This document shows positions 59,211 to 62,042 of a stretch of 64,000 bases of DNA, one piece after another. The stretch is taken from assembly GCA_021824145.1 (NCBI GenBank), contig JAKALM010000004.1, positions 62,001 to 126,000 on the forward strand, in the 5' to 3' direction. Numbering within the stretch: position 1 is the stretch's first letter; the number at the start of each line of letters is the position of its first letter. A model generated the notes under the pieces. The model saw only the letters and a list, made by a program, of their open reading frames with translations. It made no database searches and was not told the DNA's origin. The stretch is from Bacteroidota bacterium (GTDB lineage: Bacteria > Bacteroidota > Ignavibacteria > Ignavibacteriales > Ignavibacteriaceae). Both the position numbers and the translations under genes were made by a program.

Positions 59211-59738
59211 ATGATTGATCTAAAAGAATTAAAACTTACATCAAAAATATTTTTATATATTTGCTTTTTATCTGGCACATTATGGATAGGCAGTTATGTA
59301 GCGCGACTTACATTAACTTACCAACTTTTCCAAGGTAATTATTTTTCATTAAAACCAATTTTTAACAATCAAAATTTACCGGCAATATTTATCACACTTA
59401 ACTCTGCTGCAATTTTAACTTCAATTTTGTTTAGTATTTTTATAATAACATTTATTGTGTTTTTATTTTTATCTCATATTAATTTAAAAGAAAACGGCTG
59501 GTTATTAATTTCTACAATTATAATTGTTTTAACACTTCCATTTGAAATGATTTTAATGAATAATGATTATAAAATTTATTCTTTAATCCAAACCGGAAGT
59601 TTCGATCCAAACCAAATTTTAATATATACAATAAATAGATTTAAAGTATTAGGAAGTTTTCCAATTATTGAAGTACTTTGTTATTTTTCAATAATTTATC
59701 TTGTTTTATTTCAACCTTTAAAACTAGTGAAAAAGTAA
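59211..59738 (+). CDS. Four-helix membrane protein of unknown function
   Basis: 175 residues with four hydrophobic segments (~12-32, ~60-88, ~96-116, ~150-170). No motif or family was recognised. Low-polarity loops and a Lys-rich C-terminus suggest an inner-membrane location. It shares an operon with the next two genes (3 bp to the 90-residue gene, then aroQ). Its start is 39 bp from that of the divergent Ppx/GppA gene. Confidence 0.7.
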   Translation: MIDLKELKLTSKIFLYICFLSGTLWIGSYVARLTLTYQLFQGNYFSLKPIFNNQNLPAIFITLNSAAILTSILFSIFIITFIVFLFLSHINLKENGWLLISTIIIVLTLPFEMILMNNDYKIYSLIQTGSFDPNQILIYTINRFKVLGSFPIIEVLCYFSIIYLVLFQPLKLVKK

Positions 59739-59741
59739 TGT

Positions 59742-60014
59742 ATGAAAATTAAAGAAAAAGAGTTTGAAGAAACTATTCAAGATTTAAAGGCTTTAGCTTC
59801 ACAATTAGGCGCAGAAGTCAGATTTGAAAAGGGAGACTTCAAAGGAGGTTATTGCATTTTAAAGGAAAGTAAGGTGATTGTAATTAACAAAACAGCAAAT
59901 TTACAAAGAAAAGTGATGATCCTCTCAATAGCACTTAAAGAATTAGGAATTGAACAATTGTATTTAACTCCAAAGTTAAGAGAAATTATTGACGAAATGA
60001 CGGAAATGAAATGA
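59742..60014 (+). CDS. Conserved small protein upstream of aroQ
   Basis: 90 residues, soluble, mixed helix and strand. It begins 'MKIKEKEFEETIQDLKALAS', then 'RFEKGDFKGGYCILKESKVIVINKT' in part, and ends in 'YLTPKLREIIDEM'. The composition is normal for a cytoplasmic protein and the phrase 'GGYCILKES' looks structured, so it is a real gene. I do not recognise a named family. The stop overlaps the start of aroQ by 4 bp. Confidence 0.8.
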   Translation: MKIKEKEFEETIQDLKALASQLGAEVRFEKGDFKGGYCILKESKVIVINKTANLQRKVMILSIALKELGIEQLYLTPKLREIIDEMTEMK

Positions 60015-60607: not shown

Positions 60608-61003
60608 ATGAAAAATCTTTCAATTAAAAAGCTTTATTATTCGATAAGTGAAGTCAGTAAAATAACTGAAGTCGAACAATATGTGCTTAGATATTGGGAA
60701 ACTGAATTTGAAGAATTAAAACCTCAAAAAAATAGAGCAGGCAACAGAATTTACACAAACAAAGATATCCAGTTGATTCTTCAGATAAAAAATTTGTTAA
60801 GAGAGAAAAAATATACCATTGAGGGAGCAAAAAAGATATTAGAAAATTATTCAAATGAAGAAGCTATAATAACTGATATTGCAGAAAATTCACCAGTTAA
60901 CAATGGTATAATAAATATTGAAGTCAAAAAAGATAAATCATCTATAAAAAAAGATCTTGAAGAAGTAAAAAGTTTATTAGAATTTTTAATAACAAAATTA
61001 TGA
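60608..61003 (+). CDS. MerR-family transcriptional regulator
   Basis: 131 residues. N-terminal winged helix ('YYSISEVSKITEVEQYVLRY', 'WETEFEELKPQKNRAGNRIY') followed by 'LLREKKYTIEGAKKIL', typical of the HTH_17/MerR_1 family that is widespread and usually single-copy in Bacteroidota. The C-terminal half is a Lys/Glu coiled-coil without ligand-binding cysteines. The target is unknown. tRNA-Pro starts 4 bp downstream, so the two may share a transcript. Confidence 0.9.
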   Translation: MKNLSIKKLYYSISEVSKITEVEQYVLRYWETEFEELKPQKNRAGNRIYTNKDIQLILQIKNLLREKKYTIEGAKKILENYSNEEAIITDIAENSPVNNGIINIEVKKDKSSIKKDLEEVKSLLEFLITKL

Positions 61004-61007
61004 AATT

Positions 61008-61081
61008 CGGAACGTGGCGCAGCCCGGTAGCGTACCTGAATGGGGTTCAGGTGGTCGTGGGTTCAAATCCCACCGTTCCGA
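61008..61081 (+). tRNA. tRNA-Pro (anticodon GGG)
   Basis: A full 74-nt cloverleaf: acceptor CGGAACG/CGTTCCG, D-arm GCGC/GCGT, anticodon arm CCTGA/TCAGG with loop ATGGGGT (anticodon GGG), T-arm GTGGG/CCCAC with TTCAAAT, discriminator A. No encoded CCA. It begins 4 bp after the MerR stop and is followed by a terminator. Confidence 0.96.
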
Positions 61082-61087
61082 CAACCT

Positions 61088-61114
61088 AAGGTACTAAATA
61101 AGTACCTTTTTTTA
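61088..61114 (+). terminator. Rho-independent terminator after tRNA-Pro
   Basis: The stem AAGGTACT (61088-61095) pairs with 61101-61108, with a 5-base loop and then a T-run. It lies 6 bp after the tRNA and before the next ATG at 61137. Confidence 0.9.
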
Positions 61115-61136
61115 TTTCCAATATTTTGAGGGAATT

Positions 61137-61478
61137 ATGTTCGAACATAAAAAAGAGCCTTTATTGACAAAGGGAAAATACATTGTTAGAATTTTAAAAC
61201 ATTTAATTATAGCTTTTAGTGTTGTAGTAGTTTCTCTAGGTATTGGAGTAATTGGATATCATTTAACAGAAGGATTAAATTGGATTGATTCCTTTTTAAA
61301 TGCATCTATGATTCTTGGCGGTATGGGGCCTGTGAATGAACTGCATACAACAATGGGAAAATTATTCGCATCATTTTATTCATTATTTTCTGGTATAATT
61401 TTCCTTGTTATAGTAGGAATTGTTTTTGCCCCAATTTATCATCGTTTTCTACATAAATTCCATTTAGAAATAAAATGA
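61137..61478 (+). CDS. Two-helix membrane protein resembling a K+ channel pore with altered filter
   Basis: 113 residues. Membrane segments at ~17-40 and ~75-100. Between them 'WIDSFLNASMILGGMGPV' then 'HTTMGKLFASFYSLFSGIIF' aligns by eye with the pore helix, filter and inner helix of ion_trans_2 channels (pattern 'D..... TvGYGD ... T.GrlFa'). The filter position reads ILGGMGP instead of TVGYGD, so potassium selectivity is unlikely. It may be a degenerate channel, another ion pore or an unrelated protein. GAGG lies upstream of the ATG. It follows the tRNA-Pro terminator and precedes a lipoprotein. Confidence 0.75.
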   Translation: MFEHKKEPLLTKGKYIVRILKHLIIAFSVVVVSLGIGVIGYHLTEGLNWIDSFLNASMILGGMGPVNELHTTMGKLFASFYSLFSGIIFLVIVGIVFAPIYHRFLHKFHLEIK

Positions 61479-61592: not shown

Positions 61593-62042
61593 ATGAAAAA
61601 GTATTACATTTTTTTCTTATTTATTTTCATTTTAGGTTGTAATGACCCTATCAAAATTGATTTGCAAAGTTATTCAAACCAAATAAAACAAATTAGTTCT
61701 CTTGAAGAAGACGCATTAAAAAGATGGAATTCAGTTTCAGGTTCTAATTTTGTAAATGATGGCTATATGTACCAAGCACTCGATACTTACATTATTGATA
61801 ATTATAGCCGCTTCCTTGATAAGCTAAGTAATATAAAACCTCAAACAAAAGAAATTCAGGAACTAAATAATATTTATATCGATGCGGCACAAAAACAATT
61901 AAACGGCTTCAAAATGATGAAAGATGGTTTGGAAAAACATAGTAAAGACATTATGAATAATGCTTATCAATTATTAACAGATGGAAGAGCTGAAGAAAGA
62001 AATTGGGTGAATAAATATGAAGAGCTCTCCAAAGCTCATTAA
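61593..62042 (+). CDS. Small lipoprotein of unknown function
   Basis: 149 residues. Lipoprotein signal 'MKKYYIFFLFIFILGCND' with Cys at ~16. The mature part is predicted mostly helical ('YSNQIKQISSLEEDALKRWN', 'LSNIKPQTKEIQELNN', 'NGFKMMKDGLEKHSKDIMNN'), a helical bundle or coiled-coil. No family was recognised. Asp after the lipid Cys (Asn-Asp) does not clearly decide inner or outer membrane sorting. AAGGTGG lies just upstream of the ATG. A 130-bp gap follows, before purF. Confidence 0.75.
   Translation: MKKYYIFFLFIFILGCNDPIKIDLQSYSNQIKQISSLEEDALKRWNSVSGSNFVNDGYMYQALDTYIIDNYSRFLDKLSNIKPQTKEIQELNNIYIDAAQKQLNGFKMMKDGLEKHSKDIMNNAYQLLTDGRAEERNWVNKYEELSKAH

Follow-up and report, generated by a model that had tools for sequence, protein, structure and literature searches.

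To our knowledge, the selectivity filters of 2TM channels nearly always read TxGYG or a small edit of that pattern. In the window, i.e. the whole stretch of 64,000 nucleotides of DNA that was analysed, a preliminary description had picked out a short open reading frame (ORF) with the layout of such a pore, in which ILGGMGP stood at the place of TVGYGD, and had suggested either an undescribed channel class or a channel-derived protein with another job. This raises the question of whether the ORF is a gene, whether its product is related to channels, and what a pore with this filter might pass.

The gene and its family

The ORF (61137..61478, + strand, ATG start) encodes a protein of 113 amino acids. 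Its placement is given by the ORF list and by homologues, and both ILGGMGP and TTMGKLFASFYSLFSGI are present in the protein as described. The Shine-Dalgarno-like sequence GAGGG (61128..61132, +), read in the sequence, ends 4 bases 5' of the ATG. A gene for tRNA-Pro (ggg; 61008..61082, +), which lies outside the system, precedes the ORF, with a terminator-like hairpin (61088..61108, +) in the gap between the two and a MerR-type regulator gene (60608-61003) upstream of the tRNA. The next ORF downstream (61593-62042) has a lipoprotein-like start with what we take to be a lipobox, and its match to DUF7018 is below the cut-off; further downstream, from 62175, lies a glutamine-amidotransferase/phosphoribosyltransferase-like gene, presumably encoding PurF. 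The location between a tRNA terminator and a lipoprotein gene was described correctly. Elsewhere in the window, two ORFs of 175 and 90 amino acids (59211-60014) precede a dehydroquinase II gene, and Pfam at E 0.01 gave no match for them.

The gene is real and belongs to a conserved family, named GMGP here after its filter, which occurs across many bacterial phyla. The dN/dS ratio was 0.045 to 0.12 in five of seven sequence pairs, those for which dS was defined; in the remaining two, dS was saturated. Together with the motif GMGP, which was found in 100 of the 110 distinct relatives covering the filter (frames of up to 230 amino acids), this indicates that the ORF is more than a product of chance.

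A contig scan yielded 53 loci, whose titles include Bacteroidetes, Ignavibacteria, Zixiibacteriota, Nitrospirae, Phycisphaerales, Hydrogenedentes, Chloroflexi, Omnitrophota, Elusimicrobia, Armatimonadetes, Margulisiibacteriota, Verrucomicrobia and Deltaproteobacteria; the named relatives come almost entirely from metagenome bins, and any single phylum label may be wrong. Profile searches recovered the family in 38 of 296 genomes of the window's phylum (39 listed; G063 was excluded as its match lies in a frame of 355 amino acids), in 9/148 genomes of the phylum of a Nitrospiraceae genome (12 listed; three excluded, frames of 354-368 amino acids), in 4/199 of the phylum of a Phycisphaerales bin (seven listed; three excluded, frames of 335-353 amino acids) and in 5/398 of the phylum of a Sulfuricella bin, the centre genome counted. 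Among 59 nearby genomes, 15 have true relatives (full-length, at least 54% identity, own genome included); 42 formally match, and the weak matches were discounted, as was a match of 26 residues in G015. The distribution is patchy yet wide. Support in a quick tree of the family was too weak to separate transfer from loss.

Sixteen weak-match loci were checked as candidate homologues and rejected: 15 encode CcmB-like proteins and one (L021) a K+ channel. The CcmB-like proteins (L002:1444-2109 and L017-L031 except L021) match the query weakly and consistently (E about 1e-3, mostly residues 13-110), which probably reflects shared membrane-helix composition rather than kinship. A viral or phage origin was likewise rejected, since neither IMG/VR, searched with single-sequence peptide patterns, nor phage records, searched with tblastn, yielded a relative. 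In open-licence papers, no description of the family was found, a search which mentions by locus number only would escape.

Some relatives are unusual. Two records of Proteus mirabilis, filed as plasmids yet about 4.1 Mb long, carry an unannotated divergent relative (L087:5974-6336) with the filter SGQPVEP, in which HRQLHKWHLE is retained. The relative at L125:2293-2493 is interrupted by several stop codons; its genome (G150) has TrkH. Contig C8 of genome G190 has two divergent copies (L119 and L120), about 61 kb apart and without the histidine motif.

Predicted fold and kinship with P-loop channels

The structure predicted with AlphaFold2 from a 51-member alignment (mean pLDDT 90.7, pTM 0.78) has helices at residues 12-44, 49-60 and 72-112. 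Conserved positions were read from a 60-sequence alignment, from which three fragmentary or frameshifted rows had been removed first. According to model and alignment columns, the outer helix TM1 (residues 12-44; 61170..61268, +) contains the invariant residues G37, G40 and Y41, the pore helix (residues 49-60; 61281..61316, +) D51, N55, M58 and L60, and the inner helix TM2 (residues 72-112; 61350..61472, +) K75, F77, Y81, G86 and P99. Between the latter two lies the filter loop GGMGPVN (residues 61-67; 61317..61337, +), in which G62, M63, G64 and P65 are invariant in 60/60 aligned sequences. The end of the inner helix carries a histidine cluster, H102-R103-x-x-H106-x-x-H109 (61440..61463, +); H102, R103 and H106 are invariant as well, and H109 is present in 59/60. 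The preliminary description had noted that the protein has no regulatory domain, and there is indeed no fused domain in the window protein; the conserved histidine-rich end of the inner helix had been overlooked.

Free variation of the filter is contradicted by the 100 of 110 distinct relatives that keep GMGP. The ten exceptions, none of which reads TxG[YF]G, are GNGP (two), GMGL, GEGP, GLGI, VMGA, VMGP, GVGP, SGQPVEP in Proteus mirabilis and GTQNLHI in L130. A tally of 47/49 from the contig scan is partly built in, as the seed peptides included MGPVNELH; the 51/58 among loci from genome searches alone is fairer, but most of these were fetched by a profile that itself derives from the seeded scan. 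The pattern HR..H..H occurs in 96/112 distinct aligned stretches, some of which stop short of the motif; L119, L120, L122 and L086 are divergent relatives without it. In 99 sequences, the mean number of K+R was 4.2 and that of D+E 1.7 in columns 1-20 (N-terminus), 0.5 and 2.9 in columns 45-72 (loop), and 2.1 and 1.5 in columns 100-113 (C-terminus). A cation channel whose filter faces outward would be expected to show this pattern of a basic N-terminus, a slightly basic C-terminus and an acidic loop.

Taken together, there is good support for kinship with tetrameric P-loop channels. Of 764 Foldseek matches at E ≤ 10, the best 50 are all pores of NaK or NaK chimeras (best E 0.014 with probability 1.00; none at E ≤ 0.001). 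VIA gave a Z of 11.4 to the CNG-mimic NaK 4zbm_B over 95 residues, with matching ranges and therefore no gap, and of 10.3 to 8hk6_A, with an rmsd of 1.9 over 89 residues; the large rmsd to NaK (5.5) counts against the channel reading. So does the fact that both Z values are below about 13, a range that can be of little significance for helical proteins; the sequence evidence therefore matters. The family profile, searched against the PDB, matched NaK from E 4.6e-4, and P-loop channels account for 30/34 rows at E ≤ 10, including the best 28. At E ≤ 0.01 it matched 3/25 K+-channel ORFs from PF07885 loci, which had been chosen by a filter-like motif, whereas each of 15 column-shuffled profiles matched 0/25. 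Among 4257 ORFs of the fetched loci, the matches outside the family at E ≤ 0.01 comprised one TrkH fragment and 12 channel-like ORFs (one protein twice), nine of the latter from loci fetched by the query or the profile itself; K+-channel-like proteins, mostly in profile-fetched loci, were matched at E 3.6e-8 to 9.3e-6. A comparison of the family with K+ channels by hhalign (29 rows, one of which, L170, is apparently a wrong ORF) gave E 2.6e-5 and a probability of 75%; one of 12 shuffled alignments reached 1.4e-4.

No Pfam or NCBIfam model matched the window protein above its cut-off; Ion_trans_2 (PF07885) gave 12.7 bits, short of the gathering cut-off of 22.5. Singly, 31/51 members touch Ion_trans_2 at E ≤ 1 (best 0.005), but SieB (14 members, best 0.0039) and Cation_efflux (five members, best 7.8e-4) match some members as well or better, so that Pfam alone leaves the assignment undecided. 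When the model was compared with the viral structures of BFVD, the best match was a potassium channel domain protein of Pithovirus LCPAC304 (E 1.3e-5, 35% identity). The list of viral folds is headed by giant-virus proteins of 98-134 amino acids, several of which are named potassium channels.

The two-helix pore layout, the likeness to K+ channels and the non-canonical filter of the preliminary description are thus borne out by the predicted 2TM P-loop fold (AlphaFold2, Foldseek, VIA), by profile kinship with NaK and K+ channels and by the strict conservation of GMGP. Neither of the two outcomes that were to speak against it was seen: the filter residues do not vary freely, and the predicted subunit has the pore-loop fold. 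Its reading as a whole is partly supported. The GMGP family may be a variant within the tetrameric P-loop channels, with a channel-like body plan and a non-standard filter.

The filter and its counterparts in known channels

Two readings of the filter register were obtained. In the gapped register, alignments of the family profile to K+ channels and hhalign place GMGP on GYGD/GFGE, with two gapped residues before it. In the gapless register, alignments to CNG-mimic NaK place GGMGPVN on letters of the type TTVGETP, which correspond to TTVGYGD by numbering: G64 is at the first filter glycine, P65 at Tyr78 and N67 at Asp80, and the loop is one residue shorter. The positions of Tyr78, Gly79 and Asp80 are those we assume from KcsA numbering. 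Position 67 is Asn or Asp in 58/60 sequences, and P65 and V66 at the sites of Tyr78 and Gly79 would preclude a normal K+ filter. The gapless register is preferred, as it leaves the pore helix uninterrupted, although the register is uncertain. The equation of ILGGMGP with TVGYGD in the preliminary description follows the gapped profile alignments, while the gapless alignment to NaK gives another. In either register the filter is not of the TxGYG kind.

NaK and its CNG-mimic mutants share the 2TM P-loop fold and a similar length with the GMGP family and are its best matches in sequence and structure. The shorter loop of CNG-mimic NaK fits the family without a gap; while loop length thus agrees in the gapless register, the letters differ (TVGDG, TVGET or TIGET in NaK and CNG filters, GMGPV in the family), and the family's HRxxHxxH tail falls beyond the stretch aligned with NaK by sequence. 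The 2TM K+ channels with a long C-terminus (L117, L118, L021 and others), which we take to be RCK-type, share an outer helix with GxxGY...EGxxxIDA, the pore helix and an inner helix starting with GK-F. They have a filter of the TxGF/TxGY type, or an edit of it, and 328-362 amino acids; the GMGP family has neither.

According to the report on NirBacs (PMC4607889), these prokaryotic 2TM channels have unique filters, conduct non-selectively and bear Kir domains, and are given there as three genes. The GMGP family differs in being pore-only and present in many phyla, and the query, which ends 14 residues past P99 of the inner helix, has no Kir-type cytoplasmic domain. NirBacs are thus a reported precedent, among prokaryotic 2TM channels, for non-selective conduction through a unique filter. 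The viral miniature K+ channels Kcv and Kmpv also have pore-only subunits, the smallest of 78 amino acids, and are said in PMC12332018 to bear the hallmarks of K+ channels.

Proposed working and alternatives

We consider it somewhat probable that four products of the gene assemble into a minimal cation channel of the tetrameric P-loop kind, in which tetramer, conduction, selectivity and gating are inferred from the features given above. Arranged around a central pore, each of the four copies would contribute an outer helix, a pore helix, the short, outward-facing filter loop GGMGPVN, and an inner helix ending in the conserved histidines on the cytoplasmic side. With a loop apparently one residue below the length of a K+ filter and no TxGYG, no ion sites other than the inner ones would be expected, and above them a wide acidic vestibule may open, similar to NaK and CNG channels, the non-selective types with only the two inner ion sites. 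Weakly selective passage of small cations would therefore be the most likely activity. The three histidines, with a spacing of four and three, would lie on one helix face and form a ring at the cytoplasmic mouth of the tetramer; this ring would be the most likely gate or sensor, perhaps for pH or a metal ion.

Alternatively, the protein could descend from a channel but no longer conduct, and instead serve another complex in a structural, regulatory or sensor role, its frozen loop being a binding surface. We judge this unlikely. In its favour, the invariant residues N55, M58, M63 and P65 are atypical of K+ channels, and the relatives L087 and L130 have lost the filter yet keep the HR..H..H end. 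Against it, the invariant block of L60 and G62-P65 sits at the filter place, and no conserved partner gene was detected. The largest cluster of neighbours covers 10 of 106 loci (same-genome duplicates counted), which belong to four genomes of one family. Neighbours on the same strand, of at least 90 amino acids and within 200 bases, numbered 48 upstream and 44 downstream of 99 loci; near-relative repeats were left out and 45 and 40 were scanned, and, among the best 25 of 80 and of 64 Pfam families, the most frequent one reached 3/45 upstream and 2/40 downstream. As no cluster or Pfam family recurs more widely than this, an operon partner was rejected, in line with the first description of a gene that stands alone. 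Isolated neighbours include genes for an MscS-like protein (Thioclava), a bestrophin-like protein (L122) and a universal stress protein (Usp; L120), the last two loci being divergent members in the window's phylum. The Proteus homologue L087 has Usp genes on both sides in the one record inspected.

It is also unlikely that the protein forms a K+-selective channel for uptake or leak that serves K+ homeostasis in Trk-less lineages, its filter offering from each subunit a single glycine before a proline, the arrangement of TrkH repeat D (NVGPG / NLGPG). Background on the filter glycines of Trk/HKT proteins is given in PMC7918770. In a related genome, repeat D of a protein confirmed as TrkH reads ATSLGNVGPAIG...DFGKWFLSF beside ASMILGGMGPVN...TMGKLFASF of the family; repeat four of TrkH/KtrB/HKT offers LGNVGPA/G beside LGGMGPV, a visually striking likeness, and GKWFLSF beside GKLFASF. 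These proteins have four repeats in one long chain, unlike the single-repeat GMGP family, and the statistical link is weak: hhalign of the family against TrkH repeat D gave E 0.0012 and a probability of 19%, with 12/12 shuffles worse, whereas K+ channels are closer by the same method. Full-length TrkH/KtrB (16 searched) remained at chance level (best E 23); with repeat D excised alone, the best E was 0.0035 and the next 0.53, but the best alignment pairs the filter with a second stretch, GSVGPV, instead of GNVGPA.

The genomic context of K+ transport was compared for the 296 genomes of the window's phylum. In the window's genome, neither TrkH nor a match to Ion_trans_2 at E ≤ 0.001 was found, but Kup is present. 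TrkH occurs in 4/38 gene holders vs 117/258 others (p 2.8e-5), and the gene in 9/38 genomes with neither TrkH nor Kup vs 29/258 genomes with either (p 0.04), in keeping with a K+-selective function. However, the exclusion of TrkH weakens to P 0.09 once shuffling is confined to families, in a test limited to the 258 genomes that have TrkH or Kup, and Kup itself is present in 26/38 holders vs 121/258 others (p 0.015). Among the 38 holders, the copy of G150 is interrupted by stops, and those of G129 and G264 are divergent; these three genomes and G075 are the four holders with TrkH. The rarity of TrkH in holders mostly follows lineage and is a lead, not a result. Replacement of K+ uptake was rejected as an explanation, the exclusion being strong only when taken crudely.

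A pore for a non-alkali substrate, such as protons, ammonium or a histidine-bound transition metal, is improbable. The three histidines conserved where each subunit's inner helix ends would suit it, as would the metal-linked neighbours of the two divergent members in G190, one of which follows an HlyD/CusB-like gene while the other lies between genes for a multicopper oxidase and a Usp; these neighbours are isolated cases, and their members, L119 and L120, have no histidine motif.

Very unlikely is the notion that GMGP proteins are a surviving single-repeat, homotetrameric intermediate linking 2TM K+ channels to the Trk/Ktr/HKT (SKT) proteins with their four repeats, with one filter glycine and a following proline in each subunit like Trk repeat D, a histidine-ring gate at the inner mouth and a role in cation balance in Trk-less lineages; for membership in SKT itself, the query is one repeat of 113 amino acids and PF02386 is absent from its Pfam matches at E ≤ 10.

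The preferred reading thus remains the minimal cation channel with weak selectivity. As a family of pore-only proteins, about 115 residues long, with a near-frozen, odd filter and members in many phyla, it would amount to a natural experiment on the potential of the P-loop, and would offer a very small protein for testing what P-loops can become. If it conducts, many environmental bacteria would have a further route for ions that is so far unannotated.
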